Made by a program: the position numbers and the translations under genes. A stretch of 43,036 nt of DNA. Source: Microcaldota archaeon. Its GTDB lineage: Archaea > Micrarchaeota > Micrarchaeia > Micrarchaeales > Micrarchaeaceae. The DNA lies in NCBI GenBank assembly GCA_021787495.1, contig JAJYLX010000007.1:1-43036 (forward strand). Direction: 5' to 3'. The notes under the pieces are model-generated. The model searched no databases, was not told the DNA's origin, and saw only the letters and a program-made list of their open reading frames with translations. Positions within the stretch are counted from its first letter, which is position 1. Every line of letters begins with the position of its first letter. Positions 21,626-43,036 of this stretch are shown piece by piece.

Positions 21626-21766
21626 GGGGTTGTAGCGTAACCTGGCAGCGCAGCAGGCTCCAGATGTTCAGAAAAATGTTATGAGCCGTTGGCGATGATT
21701 TGGATCTGGAATTCAGATTCGATATGAAGTAACCTGCTGATCCGGGTTCGAATCCCGGCAACCCCA
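21626..21766 (+). tRNA. tRNA-Trp (CCA) with 68-nt intron
   Basis: Exons 21626-21663 and 21732-21766 fold to a cloverleaf: acceptor GGGGTTG/CAACCCC, D arm GCGT/GCGC, anticodon stem GCAGG/CCTGC with loop CTCCAGA (anticodon CCA at 21660-21662), T stem CCGGG/CCCGG with loop TTCGAAT, discriminator A. The intron (21664-21731) follows position 37, the canonical archaeal site; its exact edges rest on exon conservation, because the bulge-helix-bulge I can draw is imperfect. The intron has an internal hairpin (ATCTG/CAGAT). Confidence 0.9.
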
Positions 21767-26814: not shown

Positions 26815-28089
26815 TTATCTCGGCCGCATCTTCTGCGCCTGGGCGGAGTAATGGGTCCTGACGTAGTCCTCCAGGTGCCTCTTGAACTCTTCTGTCGCAG
26901 TGTCGGCCTTGACTGACGCGACCTGCTTCCCGTCCGCGTAGATGAGGCAGGACGGGTTCTCGCCGCTGCCTGGGAGTGAGATGCCAATGTTGGCGCGCCT
27001 GCTCTCGCCCGGGCCGTTGACGACACACCCCATGACCGCGACCTTCATCCCTTCGACGCCGGCGTATCCCGACCTCTTCCATTCCGGCATCCTCTCCTGC
27101 AGGTAGTCTGTGAGCTCCTGGGCCATCTCCTGGAAGACCGTGGAGGTGGTGCGCCCGCAGCCAGGGCAGCTCGATACGAGCGGCGAGAAGTGGCGTATGT
27201 CCAGAGACTGCAGTATCTGCCTAGCGACCGTGACCTCCTCTGTCCTGCTCGATCCGGGCACGGGGGTGAGCGACACGCGTATCGTGTCGCCTATGCCCGC
27301 GGCCATCAGCAGCGAGAGGGCGGCGCTCGAGGCGGCTATCCCCTTGCTCCCTATGCCGGCCTCCGTCAGCCCCAGGTGCAGCGGCTGCTCTATCCTCCCG
27401 GCGAGCATCTGGTACGCCCTGACCATCTGCGGCACCTCCGATATCTTGGTGCTCACTATGATGTGGTCCGGCTCGGTCCCGTATTCTATCGCCTTGTTGA
27501 CCGACTGCACGGCGCTCTCCACGACCGCGTCAACCGTTACGTCCTCCGCACTCCTCGGATTTGCGCTTTTCGTGTTCCTGTCCATTAAGGTGGCCAGCAC
27601 GGCCGGGTCGAGCGACCCCCAGTTGACGCCTATCCTGACGGGCTTGTCGTGGTCGTTCGCGACATTGAGCATCGCGCGGAAGTTCTCGTCGTGCTTCTCG
27701 CCGAACCCTACGTTTCCGGGATTGATCCTGTACTTGTCGAGCGCGTCCGCGCACTCAGGCACCTCCGTGAGCAGCTGGTGCCCGTTGTAGTGGAAGTCCC
27801 CTATGAGCGGTATGTCGTAGCCGAGGTCGTCTATCGCCTTCCTTATGGCCTTGACGGCCCTCGCCATGCGAAGGTCCTGCACGGTGAACCTGACGAGCTC
27901 CGACCCCGCCTTGTAGAGGTCTACTATCTGCGCCACTGTGGCGGCGACGTCGCCGGTGTCCGTGTTCGTCATGCTCTGCACCGCGACCGGGTGCTCCGAC
28001 CCTATGCGCATGTTGCGCACCCTGACCTGCAGGGACCTCCTGCGCGGCGCCCAGTCGGACGTCTCTCTGCCCATCGCTATTATTGCCAT
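26815..28089 (-). CDS. ispG: IspG/GcpE, HMBPP synthase (MEP pathway)
   Basis: A 424-aa enzyme making 4-hydroxy-3-methylbut-2-enyl diphosphate from MEcPP, the sixth step of the MEP pathway. The N-terminal TIM barrel contains VAVQSMTNTDTGD (about 35-47), ELVRFTV, IGDFHYNG and INPGNVG (about 122-128). The C-terminal [4Fe-4S] domain has the three ligands C308 and C311 (SCPGCGRT) and C355 (MGCVVNGPGE), with E362 as fourth ligand. Length is that of the bacterial two-domain form. It starts 4 nt after the ispH stop with ribosome binding site AAAGGTGAGAGG, so the two are translationally linked. All catalytic residues are intact. It needs a ferredoxin or flavodoxin donor, not seen here. Confidence 0.97.
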   Translation of the reverse strand: MAIIAMGRETSDWAPRRRSLQVRVRNMRIGSEHPVAVQSMTNTDTGDVAATVAQIVDLYKAGSELVRFTVQDLRMARAVKAIRKAIDDLGYDIPLIGDFHYNGHQLLTEVPECADALDKYRINPGNVGFGEKHDENFRAMLNVANDHDKPVRIGVNWGSLDPAVLATLMDRNTKSANPRSAEDVTVDAVVESAVQSVNKAIEYGTEPDHIIVSTKISEVPQMVRAYQMLAGRIEQPLHLGLTEAGIGSKGIAASSAALSLLMAAGIGDTIRVSLTPVPGSSRTEEVTVARQILQSLDIRHFSPLVSSCPGCGRTTSTVFQEMAQELTDYLQERMPEWKRSGYAGVEGMKVAVMGCVVNGPGESRRANIGISLPGSGENPSCLIYADGKQVASVKADTATEEFKRHLEDYVRTHYSAQAQKMRPR

Positions 28090-28093
28090 CCTC

Positions 28094-29041
28094 TCACCTT
28101 TTCATGTTCCTAGAAATCTCATGCAGCTCGTGCGGCATCGTGAACCTCATGTCCTCTTTTACCAGCTCCATGTTTGAGAGCTGCGCGCCGTCGCGCATGA
28201 AATGCCTGGCAACGTCCTGGACGACAGATTCCGGCGCAGAGGCGCCCGCGGATATGCCGACGGCCCTCTTTCCCTCAAGCCACGAAGGCATTATGTCCGC
28301 CACCGTGTCTATCAGGTGCGCCTCGACGCCCAGCGACCTGGCAGTGTCGACCAGCCGGTTCGAGTTCGAGGAGTTCTTGCTGCCGACCACCAGTATCAGG
28401 TCGCACTCCTTCGCCGCGGAACTTATCGCTGCCTGCCTGTTGGTGGTCGCATAGCAGATGTCCGATGATGGGGGCGCGCTTATCCTGGGGAACCTACCCT
28501 TGAGCGCCTTTATCGCCTCGGAGCACTCGCTCACCGACATGGTGGTCTGCGTCAGGTAGACGAGTTTCTCGGGGTCCTTGACCGAGAGGTTCGGAACCTC
28601 CTCGGCCGTCTCTATGATCTGGGTTATGTCGGGGCGTATGCCCATGACGCCCACGGCCTCCGGGTGGCCCCTGTGACCGATGTAGATTATCTCCATTCCC
28701 TGCCTGGCGAACCTTCCAACCTCGATGTGAATCTTGGTCACGAGTGGGCAAGTCGCGTCTATCGTCGTCAGTTTCCTGGCCTTTGCCTCCTCCCTGACTG
28801 ATGGGGCTATGCCGTGCGCCGAGAAGATGCAGACGCTGCCTCCGGGCACCTCGGACAGCTCCTCGACGAAGACCGCCCCCTTGGCGCGCAGGGCGTCCAC
28901 GACGACCTTGTTGTGCACTATCTCGTGCTTGACGTACACCGGAGAGCCGAACGCCTTGAGCGCCTCCTCGACCGTAGCTATGGCTCTCTCCACCCCTGCA
29001 CAGAACCCGCGCGGGCTTATCAGTATGACCTTGTCTGCCAT
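28094..29041 (-). CDS. ispH: IspH/LytB, HMBPP reductase (MEP pathway)
   Basis: A 315-aa Fe-S enzyme that converts HMBPP to IPP and DMAPP, the last MEP step. Cluster ligands are C14 (PRGFCAGV), C98 (DATCPLVTKIH) and C196 (DICYATTNRQ). Substrate residues are H43 (EIVHNK), H76 (SAHGIAP), H126 with E128 (GHRGHPEA), T166/T167 (TQTTMS) and the C-terminal GSKNSSNSNRL. Everything needed for catalysis is present and the length is standard. GAGGGGT precedes the ATG, and a TATA box lies 37-52 bp upstream. ispG follows in the same operon. IspG and IspH are oxygen-sensitive, suggesting a low-oxygen niche or protected clusters. Confidence 0.97.
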   Translation of the reverse strand: MADKVILISPRGFCAGVERAIATVEEALKAFGSPVYVKHEIVHNKVVVDALRAKGAVFVEELSEVPGGSVCIFSAHGIAPSVREEAKARKLTTIDATCPLVTKIHIEVGRFARQGMEIIYIGHRGHPEAVGVMGIRPDITQIIETAEEVPNLSVKDPEKLVYLTQTTMSVSECSEAIKALKGRFPRISAPPSSDICYATTNRQAAISSAAKECDLILVVGSKNSSNSNRLVDTARSLGVEAHLIDTVADIMPSWLEGKRAVGISAGASAPESVVQDVARHFMRDGAQLSNMELVKEDMRFTMPHELHEISRNMKR

Positions 29042-29077
29042 CAGTTACCCCTCAATCCGATCAAATATGGCTGCTGG

Positions 29078-29093
29078 CAGTATATATAAATAG
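29078..29093 (-). promoter_or_regulatory. TATA box of the ispH-ispG operon
   Basis: Minus-strand sequence CTATTTATATATACTG, centred about 45 bp before the ispH ATG; the expected start is near 29059, leaving a leader of about 18 nt that contains the GAGGGGT ribosome binding site. It shows that ispH-ispG has an archaeal-type promoter separate from dxr. Confidence 0.6.
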
Positions 29094-29144
29094 CGTGCCG
29101 GTTCGTCAGTAGTCGTATTGTAAGGAATCTGCTGGTTGTGGAGA

Positions 29145-30416
29145 TTACCTAGACCTGCCCTTGGCGAACCTCGCCTCGTAGTCCTTCGCCACCTCGAGGG
29201 CCCTGCCTCTCGACTCTGAATCGGCCCTCAGTATCTGCTTCAGGTCCGGGGCCTGTATCGGCACGTGCTCCTTAACAACGGCCTCTGTTATCTCGGCCAT
29301 GTCAGTGAACCTTATCTTGCGGCGCATGAATAGGTCGCAGACGGTCTCGTCCGCCCCGTTGAGCGCGGTGGGCGCGGTTCCTCCCGCCTTGCCGGCCTCG
29401 TACGCTATCCTGAGGCTCGGGAACCTGCCATAGTCGGGCTCCTCGAAGGAGAACCTGTTATCCTTAAAGAGGGAGAAGGCGCCTATCCCGAGGTCGTACC
29501 TGCGCGGGAACGTGAGCGCGTACGAGATTGGGTAGCGCATGTCGTGCGGCCCCTGCTGGACCTTCTGTATGCCGTCGGTCGTCTCTATCCCGGAGTGCAC
29601 TATGCTCTGCGGATGCACGACAATCTCTATGTCGTCGAGCGGCATGTTGAATATGGAGGCTATCTCTATACGCTCCATGCCCTTGTTCATCAGCGTGGCC
29701 GACCTTATGGTGATCAGGTCGCCCATCTTCCAGTTCGGGTGGTTGAGCGCGGCCTCTGGCGTAACGTCCTTCATCTGTTCGTAGGTCAGCCTGTTGCCCT
29801 CCTTGTTGAACGGGCCGCCGGAGCACGTCAGTATCATCTTCCTTACATTGTGCCTGGCGCCCCTCTGGAGCTTCCATACCGCGCTGTGCGCCTCGGGATC
29901 CGCGCCGACGAAGACGTCGCCCTCAATCGACTGCCATATGGCGCTGGGCTCGCTGTCTATCGGCAGCACCTCCACCCCGCTCCTCCTAGCCGCGGCCCAT
30001 ATCAGGTTGCCGGCCGTGAGGAATGCCTCCTTGTTCGCCACCGCCACCGTGTTCTTCGCATTGATTGCCTCGAGTGTGGGGGCCAGGCCCGCGAAGCCAG
30101 AGGTCGCCACCACCACGTAGCCGCCGTGCATATGGCCGCATATCCTCACGCCCTCCTCTTCGCCCGACATTATGATCGTATCTGTCCTCCTGGCAACGGC
30201 GTCCCTCACTTTCTCAGCCGAACCCTCATTGACTACGACCGCGTACTCCGGCTTGAACTTGAGAATCTGCTCGGCCATCAGGCCGGCGTTGTTGTTGCAG
30301 ATGAGCGCGAAGACGTGGAAGTCTTTCTTGCCGCGCAGCTTCTCGACCACGTCTAGCGTCTGCGTGCCTATCGAGCCCGTGCTGCCATGCACTATGAGGT
30401 CTATCTGTTTTGGCAT
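29145..30416 (-). CDS. dxr: DXP reductoisomerase IspC/Dxr (MEP pathway), divergent
   Basis: A 423-aa enzyme forming MEP from 1-deoxy-D-xylulose 5-phosphate. NADPH-binding VHGSTGSIGTQTLDVV (9-24) and VAVANKEAFLTAG (124-136) are clear. Metal and substrate residues are D154, S155 and E156 (PIDSEPSA), S199 (CSGGPF), H226 and W229 (NHPNWKMG), S239, N244, K245 and E248 (RSATLMNKGMERIE) and H268 (VVHPQS). Three conserved positions differ: His after the DSE motif is P157, Ala before SGG is C198, and Asp of DSAT is R238. It is about 25 residues longer than E. coli Dxr. The ATG at 30416 is chosen as a leaderless start 25 bp after its TATA. The reaction is supported by all metal ligands being intact. 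Confidence 0.93.
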   Translation of the reverse strand: MPKQIDLIVHGSTGSIGTQTLDVVEKLRGKKDFHVFALICNNNAGLMAEQILKFKPEYAVVVNEGSAEKVRDAVARRTDTIIMSGEEEGVRICGHMHGGYVVVATSGFAGLAPTLEAINAKNTVAVANKEAFLTAGNLIWAAARRSGVEVLPIDSEPSAIWQSIEGDVFVGADPEAHSAVWKLQRGARHNVRKMILTCSGGPFNKEGNRLTYEQMKDVTPEAALNHPNWKMGDLITIRSATLMNKGMERIEIASIFNMPLDDIEIVVHPQSIVHSGIETTDGIQKVQQGPHDMRYPISYALTFPRRYDLGIGAFSLFKDNRFSFEEPDYGRFPSLRIAYEAGKAGGTAPTALNGADETVCDLFMRRKIRFTDMAEITEAVVKEHVPIQAPDLKQILRADSESRGRALEVAKDYEARFAKGRSR

Positions 30417-30434
30417 AATCGTGTTCTTCCGCAT

Positions 30435-30447: not shown

Positions 30448-30562
30448 CTTGCGGGCGGGTTCGTCAAACATGGGAGCGCCTGCGGCTTTATAGCGGTAAA
30501 GCAAAGCGGCGGTATGGGTTTAAATTAATGGAATGCTGGAGTATGGCGTAGGGGATGGGCAG

Positions 30563-31072
30563 ATGAACAAGAACGTACCATACGCGATAGCGGCCGTAGC
30601 CATAATAGCAGTGGCGGCGGCAGTGGCGGGCGCCTATTACATGGGCGGCTACGGGGGCGCGGCGACAACCACCATAGCCGGCAGCATGCTCAGCACGGTG
30701 CAGGGAGGCCAGACGACGCAGTACACAACGGCCCCCGCAACCGTGCAGAACGCGACGCTGTTCAACACGACCCAGTACTACCCGTATTCGTACCTGATAT
30801 CGGGCGGCGCCAACCTCTCCGCATCGCCGGCCACATCAGACTTCACGCTCTCCTCGGCGAACGGCACGGGCGGGAACGTGACTTACACGATCAGCTTCAA
30901 GGGCACCAGCTCTGCTTACAACATCACGATGGGGAAGGGAGACAGCTTATATTACATAGACATGGCGCCCGCGGATGACGGGCCGGCGGACCACTCGACT
31001 GGCGACGACGGCTATGCCGTCGTCGATCCCACCGGCCATATGATAAGCCTGAAGTATCCGATCAACGGATGA
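30563..31072 (+). CDS. Signal-anchored extracellular protein, paralogue of 23118-23582
   Basis: A 169-aa protein with an N-terminal membrane helix (about 5-26), a Thr/Gly/Gln-rich linker (to about 60) and an extracellular beta domain. The domain repeats the pattern of the 23118 protein: ATLFNTTQYYPYSY, a central SLYYIDMAP, and STGDDGYAVVDPTGH near the end, with the acidic DDGPADHS run between. The start at 30563 is chosen because the TATA box (30517-30531) implies transcription from about 30545; the ATG at 30533 would lie before it. The RnfD-like gene begins 10 nt after its stop, so the two are one operon and may form one membrane unit. Confidence 0.72.
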   Translation: MNKNVPYAIAAVAIIAVAAAVAGAYYMGGYGGAATTTIAGSMLSTVQGGQTTQYTTAPATVQNATLFNTTQYYPYSYLISGGANLSASPATSDFTLSSANGTGGNVTYTISFKGTSSAYNITMGKGDSLYYIDMAPADDGPADHSTGDDGYAVVDPTGHMISLKYPING

Positions 31073-31082
31073 GTCGAACCGG

Positions 31083-31850
31083 ATGAACTTGCTAGGTCGC
31101 ACCGTAAGGATGCATCTGCTAGCCACGGCGTTGCTCGCCATCCTCGATGCGGCGTCCTCCGCGCTGCTCAGGCAGCCGCCCTACGCCGCGATGGTCGCCG
31201 TGGCGGTTTGCATGGCGTCCGAGGCAGCGCTTTACCGCGCCTTCAAGGGCAGGGCAAGGGTCACTTACTCCTCCGCGATAACCGGCCTAATCATAGGATC
31301 GGTGTCGCCGATCGCGGCGCCGCTGCTTCCGGTCGCCGTCGCGGCGCTGGTTGCGATAGCCTCAAAGTTCGCCATAAGCGTGAAGAGCAGGAACGTGTTC
31401 AACCCCGCCGCGCTCGGCATGCTCATAGGCCTCGGCGCGTTCGGCATCGGCGACGAGTGGTGGGCCGCGGGCAGCCTGACGCTGTACGGTTTCGCGGTGC
31501 CGCTCTCGATCATGCTGGTGTTGGTCGCCTATGAGGCGAGGAGGCTGACGGCTGCCCTGTCATTCATAGCAGTTTCCATAGCGGCGGCCGTGCTCCTGGG
31601 GGGCTATCTCTCCGCACCGGGGCTGCTGGCCGTGGCGCTCAGCGCCAACTACTTCTTTGATCTACTGATGCTGACGGAGCCGAAGACTTCCCCGAACGGC
31701 AGAAGGGCGCAAGTAACATACGGGGCAGGGGTCGCCGCGATGGTCGCACTGCTCTCGCTTGGCGGCATCGCATACACCTATTTCATAGCGCTGCTGGCGG
31801 GGAACGGGCTCTACGCGCTCTACAGGGTTAGGGGCGGCAGGCTGCTATGA
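31083..31850 (+). CDS. RnfD/NqrB-family membrane protein
   Basis: A 255-aa protein with about 8-9 membrane segments of the NQR2/RnfD/RnfE family (PF03116). Signatures are SVKSRNVFNPAALGMLIGL (about 97-115) and DLLMLTEPKTSPNGRRAQ (about 194-211). It is shorter than true RnfD and I see no S/D-G-A-T flavin attachment motif, so covalent FMN is doubtful. No other Rnf/Nqr subunits are present. Similar stand-alone RnfD-like proteins occur in archaea, where their role in membrane electron transfer or transport is unknown. It is coupled to the 30563 gene. Confidence 0.82.
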   Translation: MNLLGRTVRMHLLATALLAILDAASSALLRQPPYAAMVAVAVCMASEAALYRAFKGRARVTYSSAITGLIIGSVSPIAAPLLPVAVAALVAIASKFAISVKSRNVFNPAALGMLIGLGAFGIGDEWWAAGSLTLYGFAVPLSIMLVLVAYEARRLTAALSFIAVSIAAAVLLGGYLSAPGLLAVALSANYFFDLLMLTEPKTSPNGRRAQVTYGAGVAAMVALLSLGGIAYTYFIALLAGNGLYALYRVRGGRLL

Positions 31851-40151: not shown

Positions 40152-41042
40152 TCACATGAATATGAACGGGGAGAGCAGGTAAATGAGAAGCGCGAGACCC
40201 ATCGCGAGAAGGCTGAGGTTCCTCGTCCTCGCGAAGACCGCTCTCCTATTGGACTTCCTAACGGCTATGTAAGAAGCGCTTACGTAGACCAGGAGGGAAT
40301 CGACGGCCAGTATGCCTGCGAGGTAGAATAGGTTGTGCAGGAACGGCTCGGCGAAGAAGAAGAGCCACACGCTCAGTACTATGGCTATAACGTAAAAGAG
40401 CGCCGCGAGGTAAGATGCCGCCCTCACACCTATGTATGTTGGTATGCTGCGTACGTTCCTGACCATTTTATCGCCCTCGAAATCGCGTATAGTACCGTGC
40501 ACCTCGCGCGCGAACCCGCTCGCGAGGACCGTGGCGCTCAGCAGTATTATTGTGGGGCTTATGCTTCCAGACACTGCCATGGCGCCGAACAGGAACGGGA
40601 TTGCCATTGCCGCGGCTATATATGCGTTGCCTACCGCCAGCAGCTCCTTGAGCCGGTAGCTGTATAGCATCGCCATGCCGGCGAATATCGCCGCGATGAG
40701 GAGCGCGTACAGGTTTATGAAGGCGCTGGCCGCTACGCCTATCGCGAACGACGCGATTGATATCGACATCGCGGAGCGCATCGACAGCGCGCCCGAGACC
40801 AGCGGGCGGCCGCGCGTCCCGTTCGCCCTGTCCACACCCACATCAAAGTAGTCATTTATCGCGAAGGACCCCATGCTTATGAATATCGGAGCGATGAAGC
40901 TCGGCAGCAGGATTGCAAATCCTGGGAGCGTACCTCTGGAGAGTATCTCGCTCGCAAGCACCGCTACGACCAGCATCGCACTGTGCTCTATCCTTGTGAG
41001 CTTGAGGAAGGCGACCGGCTTCGACTGCCCTTTTGGACGCAT
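40152..41042 (-). CDS. UbiA prenyltransferase, probable DGGGP synthase (archaeal ether lipid)
   Basis: A 296-aa membrane enzyme with about eight to nine helices. The first prenyl-diphosphate motif is NDYFDVGVDRANGTRGRPL (about 63-81) and the second is REVHGTIRDFEGDK (about 179-192). The length, N-terminal short LKLTRIEHS and these motifs fit digeranylgeranylglyceryl-phosphate synthase, which adds the second C20 chain to glycerol-1-phosphate lipids; other UbiA activities cannot be excluded. TATA CCATTTAAAATCC (about 41070-41082, minus strand) makes the ATG at 41042 near leaderless. It uses prenyl diphosphates that the MEP genes in this window would help make. Confidence 0.87.
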   Translation of the reverse strand: MRPKGQSKPVAFLKLTRIEHSAMLVVAVLASEILSRGTLPGFAILLPSFIAPIFISMGSFAINDYFDVGVDRANGTRGRPLVSGALSMRSAMSISIASFAIGVAASAFINLYALLIAAIFAGMAMLYSYRLKELLAVGNAYIAAAMAIPFLFGAMAVSGSISPTIILLSATVLASGFAREVHGTIRDFEGDKMVRNVRSIPTYIGVRAASYLAALFYVIAIVLSVWLFFFAEPFLHNLFYLAGILAVDSLLVYVSASYIAVRKSNRRAVFARTRNLSLLAMGLALLIYLLSPFIFM

Positions 41043-42027: not shown

Positions 42028-43036
42028 ATGTCCGGCATTTGGCCCGACCCTGGTAGTAGGATGGAGAAATCACAGTCGGCGCTCGAGTTCCTGTCCGCGT
42101 ACGCGTGGGCATTCCTTATAATAGGGGTGTTCGTGACTGCGATAGTGCTGATATTCTTCTCCAGCTCCCCCTCATCGTATCTGCCGTCATCGTGCTTCAT
42201 ACAGCCCCTCATTCCATGCTCTGCCTCTGCGCTGTCAAGCTACCAGTCCGGGACTGCGAGGTTCATACTGGAGTTCAGCAACAAGCTCGGCACGGCAATT
42301 TACTTTGGGGGGAACGCAATAAACGTCAGCATCAGCGGGGGCGGCTTCAGCGGATCAACCTCGTGGGCGGGCAACTGCACGCCGCAGCTGCTTCCTGACG
42401 GCGGCCAGGCGATATGCATCGTAGGCCTTGGCAGTGCCGAGCCACTGGCCGGCAGTACATCGACCGGCTACTTCTCCCTTACTTACAAGCTGTGTAAGGG
42501 CAATTCCGCGAGCTCGTGTGGTAATTCACTGTACAAGACCACTGGATTCTCGCAGCAGACTACAGGCCAGAACCTGAGGCTCTATAATATTACGCTGCAC
42601 ACGAGCACCGGAACAGGCTACATCGCGGTCGACGGCACGGTGCATGCGGATGGCACCACACTCGTGGTAATTGGAAACACACATACCATTTACGCTGAAT
42701 CGCCGTACTCCTACGGGTTCTCGTCGTGGACCTCGACTGGTGGTGTGGCAGTGCTGAGATCGACCATGATAAACACAACGATAACGCTGACCGCGAATGG
42801 CACTCTTACCGCAGAGTTCCAGACTACAACCATTACAAGCACGACGTCCACTTCAACTACCTCGACGACGAGCACCACCACCACGACCAGCACCAGCACG
42901 ACAATAGCTTATAACTACGTCAACGTAACCATAATGAACGGCAACGGCGCTTCAGCGGCGCCGTTCCAGCAGATGGTCTCCTTCAACCCGTCGTCCTACA
43001 CCAGCAACGAGGCGAGCAACCTGGGCAACATAAGGT
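42028..43036 (+). CDS. Prepilin-like surface protein, partial (runs off right edge)
   Basis: At least 336 aa, incomplete at the 3' end. The N-terminus MEKSQSALEFLSAYAWAFLI (from 42061) gives the class III signal. The exterior domain repeats the phrases of the preceding gene (SCFIQPLIPC, FSNKLGTAIYF, NCTPQLLP, GQNLRLYNITLHTSTGTGY). A Thr/Ser linker (about 42823-42906) then leads to VNVTIMNGNGASAAPFQQMV and SNEASNLGNIR, the beginning of a DUF2341-like beta domain. ATG at 42028 (in frame, MSGIWPDPGSR before MEK) fits the TATA CTTATAATAATC at about 41991-42002; ATG at 42061 is an alternative. Confidence 0.82.
   Translation, partial: MSGIWPDPGSRMEKSQSALEFLSAYAWAFLIIGVFVTAIVLIFFSSSPSSYLPSSCFIQPLIPCSASALSSYQSGTARFILEFSNKLGTAIYFGGNAINVSISGGGFSGSTSWAGNCTPQLLPDGGQAICIVGLGSAEPLAGSTSTGYFSLTYKLCKGNSASSCGNSLYKTTGFSQQTTGQNLRLYNITLHTSTGTGYIAVDGTVHADGTTLVVIGNTHTIYAESPYSYGFSSWTSTGGVAVLRSTMINTTITLTANGTLTAEFQTTTITSTTSTSTTSTTSTTTTTSTSTTIAYNYVNVTIMNGNGASAAPFQQMVSFNPSSYTSNEASNLGNIR

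Follow-up and report, generated by a model that had tools for sequence, protein, structure and literature searches.

A bacterial-type MEP pathway lacking Dxs in the archaeal order Micrarchaeales, with a divergent YjbQ pair as candidate source of DXP

Three genes of the MEP pathway were found to lie consecutively on the reverse strand of a 43,036-nucleotide stretch of DNA (the window) from a Micrarchaeales genome (designated G000). These are ispG, encoding an HMBPP synthase of the long bacterial type (positions 26815-28089; NCBIfam match, E 1e-128), ispH, encoding HMBPP reductase (28094-29041; E 1e-127), and dxr (29145-30434, or to 30416 with the MPKQ start; E 7e-108). An earlier interpretation made from the sequence alone (the sequence-only reading) had described the three genes as intact and consecutive on one strand, and the NCBIfam matches agree, as all three are full length; the 4-nt gap which it placed between ispH and ispG is likewise borne out by the coordinates (28090-28093) and is consistent with a single transcript. 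Of the archaeal markers that it saw in the flanks, genes for thermosome, SRP54, L34e and a UbiA-family prenyltransferase (40152-41042, reverse strand) are present, the last of which may use the product of the isoprenoid route.

The three proteins are of bacterial type, as would be expected had the cluster arisen by chimeric assembly or bacterial contamination. This explanation was ruled out by synteny on both sides of the cluster. In G080, a genome of the same genus, ispG-ispH-dxr is followed by homologues of the genes at 31.9-41 kb of the window, while in G092, also of the same genus, homologues of the genes at 10-21.6 kb run into ispG-ispH-dxr, and the join is therefore not chimeric. In addition, the GC content of the cluster (0.61) is near that of the window (0.58), and the IspG proteins of Micrarchaeales form a clade of their own.

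The Dxr protein retains D150, E152, S186, H209, W212, S222, N227, K228, E231 and H257 (E. coli numbering). The proposal that its metal ligands are intact therefore holds for D150, E152 and E231, while elsewhere in the protein two substitutions relative to the E. coli enzyme were observed (H153 to P and D221 to R). The AlphaFold model (pLDDT 87) matches solved DXRs, and the features of a class I DXR were all found, these being a GSTGSIG NADPH motif, the three metal ligands, a phosphate site (S186/S222/N227/K228) and the DXR fold. The single clade formed by IspG of the order adjoins the bacterial long-type IspG in the tree, and identity across most of this clade is 77-91%.

The ispD, ispE and ispF genes were found elsewhere in G000, and all six enzymes (Dxr, IspD, IspE, IspF, IspG and IspH) are encoded in 7 Micrarchaeales genomes, G000 included. 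Together with the position of IspG in the tree, this upholds the claim that an archaeal lineage carries bacterial-type MEP genes. Within the order, dxr was detected in 17 of 164 genomes (147 were negative); four of the positive genomes (G007, G031, G080 and G249) had no detectable ispD, ispE or ispF, though Dxr, IspG and IspH are kept. The MEP genes had further been proposed to act in place of or beside the mevalonate pathway, and the answer differs between genomes. In G000 they stand beside HMGR, MVK, PMK-like and MDD genes, with no HMG-CoA synthase found, which leaves the mevalonate pathway incomplete there, while HMGR is missing from nearly all other dxr-positive relatives and from 6 of the 7 genomes having all six MEP enzymes.

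It had also been proposed that the lineage uses the MEP route; a full pathway was not supported because dxs is absent from G000 and from the order as a whole. No recognisable dxs was found in any of the 164 Micrarchaeales genomes, including dxr-positive genomes of 90-97% completeness. The top match to PF13292 in these genomes scored 51 bits, compared to 346-404 bits for the genuine Dxs proteins of 7 dxr-positive genomes from other families, all 7 of which carry dxs. The weak matches in Micrarchaeales were to PDH E1-alpha or split-transketolase-like proteins, which occur in dxr-positive and dxr-negative genomes alike, and a split transketolase was rejected as a Dxs substitute for this reason. 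G000 is 86% complete, and a dxs gene might have been overlooked there through assembly gaps or extreme divergence; however, the absence extends to the more complete dxr-positive genomes, and tblastn of G000 with Dxs from E. coli and relatives returned PDH E1 genes only, making an overlooked dxs highly improbable. A DXS-less MEP pathway is thus almost certainly real in Micrarchaeales, and the absence of dxs across the order appears to be new.

A divergent pair of UPF0047/YjbQ proteins (YjbQa and YjbQb), or a fusion of the two (YjbQ2), was present in 14 of the 17 dxr-positive genomes, in all 7 genomes encoding the six enzymes, and in none of the 147 dxr-negative genomes. A single apparent exception among the latter (G251) was rejected, as its YjbQ proved to be of the canonical form, truncated and located at the end of a contig. 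The co-occurrence with dxr has a Fisher P of ~1e-17 with kinship ignored and a within-genus conditional P of ~1e-4, but the statistic is inflated by shared ancestry and by linkage, since yjbQ and MEP genes are neighbours in several genera and a missing contig removes both. The remaining three dxr-positive genomes have canonical YjbQ only (G013 and G291) or no YjbQ (G212), and the divergent pair was not found in the dxs-positive clusters of G070, G246, G005 and G078.

Gene order points in the same direction as occurrence. The run dxr-yjbQa-yjbQb-ispH-ispG was observed in G034, G226 and G050, and yjbQa-yjbQb-ispH-ispG in G007; the pair adjoins ispG in G249 and G115, while the fused gene adjoins ispG in G083, G172 and G191 and ispEF in G000 and G092. 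The fused gene of G000 is very divergent, lies on a different contig from dxr and has no divergent 6-phosphogluconate-dehydrogenase (6PGDH)-like neighbour. The association of the pair with Micrarchaeales MEP clusters, in several arrangements, appears to be new.

All YjbQ forms scanned exceed the PF01894 (UPF0047) cut-off, while the a-type proteins score under that of NCBIfam TIGR00149, and the divergent forms make up a clade separate from canonical YjbQ. The a-type proteins keep GxWQ but not the histidine residues; conversely, the b-type proteins and the C-terminal half of the fusion keep the histidines of the YxH...SH type but not WQ. The full canonical set (HT[ST], YxH, SH and GxWQ) is therefore not found in one chain; its motifs are divided, some residing in YjbQa and others in YjbQb, or likewise across the two halves of YjbQ2. 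Such a division is as would be expected of a heteromer, and appears to be new. The structure model of the G000 fusion (pLDDT 44) was too poor for fold comparison. These proteins share sequence family and core motifs with other UPF0047/YjbQ members, among them homologues solved by structural genomics, for example SSO2532 (1vph); they differ in being two complementary divergent paralogues, or a fusion, each without part of the canonical motifs and linked to MEP genes.

The favoured interpretation, which is put forward tentatively, is that Micrarchaeales acquired a bacterial-type MEP pathway without Dxs and that the candidate YjbQ pair most likely supplies DXP. YjbQa and YjbQb would assemble as a heteromer, with both contributing residues to complete the active site, and judging from gene order and occurrence this enzyme probably functions in or with the MEP pathway. 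That it makes DXP, possibly from a pentose phosphate and aided by the adjoining 6PGDH-like protein, is a more cautious proposal, the chemistry being inferred; the resulting DXP would be converted to IPP and DMAPP via Dxr, IspD, IspE, IspF, IspG and IspH. YjbQ has no known function, and overexpressing it rescues a pdxB mutant of E. coli via the DXP-dependent B6 route (PMC7954711). More speculatively still, the heteromer or fusion could be a new, thiamine-diphosphate-independent replacement for Dxs, possibly with that substrate and partner.

DXP might instead come from a promiscuous or altered housekeeping enzyme, the YjbQ pair having some other role in the pathway, which is considered unlikely though by no means negligible. 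Such a role could lie, for example, at a later intermediate, in the Fe-S steps or in thiamine metabolism. Mutations in aceE or ribB rescue E. coli dxs mutants, but the wild-type AceE and RibB enzymes yield insufficient DXP in that host (PMC3424233). G000 encodes a PDH complex (E1 at C8:156448-158486), and its E1-beta is similar to Dxs over the C-terminal half of the latter (tblastn E 6e-18); however, E1-alpha-type matches are spread across the order regardless of dxr, unlike the YjbQ pair, and PDH E1 was for this reason retained only as a rival. Two aldo-keto reductases similar to YajO are also present in G000. RibB was rejected as a DXP source, as the E. coli query matched G000 only marginally, over 55 residues inside a protein unlike RibB. 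The YjbQ pair is kept in the four genomes without ispDEF, which means that its link to the pathway goes beyond the entry step. Those same partial sets would also fit a decaying or non-isoprenogenic remnant, with the host supplying intermediates or lipids and no DXP made inside the cell, as would the missing HMG-CoA synthase of G000 and the severe voids in central metabolism of Mia14, a member of the same family (PMC5498576). Against such decay, which is judged rather improbable, stand the largely intact active site of Dxr, the high identity of IspG within most of its clade, operons maintained across genera, and the retention of all six enzymes in 7 genomes, most of them without HMGR.

The presence of MEP genes in DPANN, including Micrarchaeales, is already published (PMC12892359; PMC8204110), so the headline of the sequence-only reading is not new. 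The 2025 study (PMC12892359) covers the same phylum and order, reports horizontal acquisition in Norongarragalinales, Zaosheniarchaeales and Micrarchaeales, and terms the pathway complete, whereas Dxs was absent from the whole order here; its available text makes no mention of YjbQ. That study assigned genes by comparison to KEGG and arCOG, accepting matches up to E 1e-5, a threshold which the match of PDH E1-beta to Dxs passes, so an over-call of Dxs may have occurred. Woesearchaeota (PMC8204110, PMC8421398) resemble the present case in being DPANN with clustered bacterial MEP genes and, in some, UbiA nearby. They are a different lineage, however, and subgroup J reportedly gained dxs and has an ispD/F fusion; the available text of these studies describes no YjbQ pair. 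Among 4,400 bacterial species surveyed in 2023, 181 lack Dxs alone while having all other MEP enzymes, and the source of DXP is unexplained in 172 of these (PMC10663253). The archaeal case differs in having a specific linked candidate family. No RuBisCO-like or cupin genes of the MTA-isoprenoid shunt (cited in PMC10663253) were seen in the neighbourhoods of the MEP clusters.

The gap in DXP supply seen in those bacterial species is now observed across an entire archaeal order, where one orphan gene family tracks the pathway by both order and occurrence, and yjbQa, yjbQb and the 6PGDH-like partner make up a short list of candidates. If the proposed role is true, an archaeal pathway reported as complete would be non-canonical, terpenoid engineering would gain a new entry point, and a first physiological role would be provided for a protein of UPF0047, a widespread orphan family.

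Full-length ispG (26815-28089), ispH (28094-29041) and dxr (29145-30434) were found together and intact on the minus strand of the window, with a gap of 4 nt between ispH and ispG; the observation on which the sequence-only reading was built is thus confirmed, and the archaeal markers it placed in the flanks were verified for thermosome, SRP54, L34e and UbiA. Dxr shares 39% identity with E. coli Dxr over 396 aligned positions, and in this alignment the metal ligands, phosphate-site residues and NADPH motif are all retained, with substitutions of H153 to P and D221 to R (E. coli numbering). An AlphaFold model of the protein (mean pLDDT 87) was similar to solved DXR structures. Both substitutions, together with an insertion of ~20 residues, mark a Dxr clade comprising the window and the related genomes G080, G092, G034, G083, G121, G172, G191, G212 and G226; the remaining relatives have canonical residues at 153 and 221, except G115 and G201, which carry H153 to P alone. 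Divergent from dxr are two plus-strand genes (30533-31850), one for a secreted or membrane-anchored protein of no known family and the other for a small NQR2/RnfD-like membrane protein. Elsewhere in the window, Rfam identified a tRNA of 141 nt (21626-21766, plus strand) which was missed by ARAGORN and probably contains an intron.

A chimeric join to a bacterial contig was looked for by synteny in G080 and G092, separately assembled genomes of the same genus as the source genome (G000), both of which carry the cluster. Homologues of the genes at 31.9-41 kb of the window follow the cluster in G080, and homologues of those at 10-21.6 kb precede it in G092; as each genome covers one flank, both joins were confirmed and a chimera was ruled out.

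The search was extended to the rest of G000 (852,337 bases in 10 contigs, 86% complete, the window being contig C3), where ispD (156167-156871), ispE (42169-42987) and ispF (42992-43522) were all located on contig C1. A mevalonate operon of classical type (HMGR-MVK-MDD-PMK-like; C1:34185-39093, loci L071/L072) lies 3 kb from ispEF; no mevalonate genes were found at the syntenic site in G092. HMG-CoA synthase was not found in G000, and is also absent from several further HMGR-positive members of its family. Seventeen genomes of the order Micrarchaeales have dxr; just two of these carry HMGR, G000 and G212 (a contig-end fragment in the latter), so that the MEP pathway stands alone in nearly all of the 17. 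The proposal that MEP is used in place of or beside mevalonate therefore divides: it lies beside the synthase-less mevalonate operon in G000, and alone in nearly all the others.

No Dxs was detected in any of the 164 genomes of the order using PF13292 (top match 51 bits), while genuine Dxs scored 346-404 bits in 7/7 dxr+ genomes from other families of the class. The weak matches within the order show no association with dxr and resemble PDH E1-alpha and N-halves of split transketolase; when G000 was searched by tblastn with Dxs proteins from E. coli and from relatives, only PDH E1 genes were matched. All six other enzymes of the pathway are encoded in 7 genomes (G000, G092, G034, G083, G172, G191 and G226). 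In contrast, a 2025 study (PMC12892359) describes the Micrarchaeales pathway as complete and takes dxs not to be a recent acquisition. Over-calling of dxs may explain this disagreement: the match of PDH E1-beta to Dxs has an E value of 6e-18, which passes the cutoff of 1e-5 given there.

Mapping of neighbouring genes in relatives revealed a recurrent UPF0047/YjbQ pair (yjbQa and yjbQb, or their fusion YjbQ2) near MEP genes, in several arrangements across five or six genera. A single-strand run of dxr, yjbQa, yjbQb, ispH and ispG is present in G034, G226 and G050, and the same order from yjbQa onwards in G007; the pair adjoins ispG in G249 and G115, as does the fusion in G083, G172 and G191. 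The fusion adjoins ispEF in G092 and G000, and is on another contig in G080 and G121. The dxs-containing clusters of G070, G246, G005 and G078 contain no YjbQ. A decayed YjbQ fragment (L253:2414-2563), having lost WQ as in the b-type, was seen upstream of dxr in the dxs+ genome G201.

A PF01894 search covered a sample of 295 genomes, with genome handles identical to those of the dxr search. Canonical YjbQ is frequent in the phylum, and the divergent pair or fusion was distinguished from it on the basis of score, motif and gene order. The divergent form was present in 14/17 dxr+ and 0/147 dxr- genomes of the order (Fisher p ~1e-17, inflated by kinship). Within mixed genera the counts for dxr+ and dxr- genomes were 3/3 and 0/6 (g33), 4/4 and 0/2 (g37), 1/1 and 0/3 (g13) and 1/1 and 0/1 (g21), giving a conditional p ~1e-4 on which physical linkage still acts, because loss of one contig can take both genes. 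The dxr+ exceptions were G013 and G291 (canonical YjbQ only) and G212. One candidate dxr- carrier, G251, was rejected as a canonical copy cut at a contig end; there (L310, contig C4) the fragment is followed by what appears by eye to be a RuBisCO large-chain start.

Canonical YjbQ (E. coli YjbQ, canonical archaeal copies and SSO2532) carries HT[ST], YxH, SH and GxWQ within one chain. YjbQa retains GxWQ and lacks the His residues, while the YxH/SH His residues are retained and WQ is missing in YjbQb and in the fusion's C-half, the first His position of YjbQb being Cys (Ser in G115). The N-half of the fusion is YjbQa-like, weakly so in G000. Each of the groups a, b and fusion-C forms a clade, and the three are jointly apart from canonical YjbQ. 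From this division of motifs we infer that YjbQa and YjbQb would form a heteromer, with each partner supplying part of one site. AlphaFold gave no usable model for the fused protein of G000.

In G083, G172, G191, G121, G080 and G092 the fusion is adjacent or nearly so to a 6-phosphogluconate-dehydrogenase-like paralogue (L133:7856-9241, L141:7301-8221, L143:10885-11829, L269:7837-8802, L307:10186-11193 and L308:7926-8834), which has AGG for SGG (FGG in G092) and Phe for the catalytic Glu where the motif is readable (G083, G172, G191 and G092). Ordinary 6PGDH sequences lie near pathway or YjbQ genes in G007, G249 and G013, and the sole 6PGDH found in G000 is an ordinary copy (C8:87129). A link of this association to ribulose-5-phosphate is speculative, and attractive because RibB mutants yield DXP in E. 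coli (PMC3424233).

In a tree of 103 sequences, the long-type IspG of the order formed one fully supported clade, placed beside the long type of bacteria (Pseudomonadota, Acidobacteriota and Gemmatimonadota), which fits the suggested bacterial origin for IspG; a short type, distinct from this one, occurs in G013 and in several other families. The tree would fit a gain of MEP early in the order and many subsequent losses. Replacement of Dxs by the pair does not account for G007 (97% complete), G031, G080 and G249, three of which are 92-97% complete: Dxr, the YjbQ pair, IspG and IspH are kept, ispD, ispE and ispF are undetectable, and a pair replacing only Dxs would leave IPP out of reach. Either these three enzymes are replaced too, or the pathway is decaying or host-shared, or the pair has its role at some other point of the route.

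YjbQ is on record as a protein of unknown function (PMC7954711); weak thiamine-phosphate synthase activity is cited for it (Morett 2008, as given in PMC4731195). That archaea may carry MEP, the headline of the sequence-only reading, is already published; what is new here is an order without Dxs and a divergent YjbQ pair tied to the Dxs-less state. A bacterial survey (PMC10663253) called for precisely such an alternative to Dxs.
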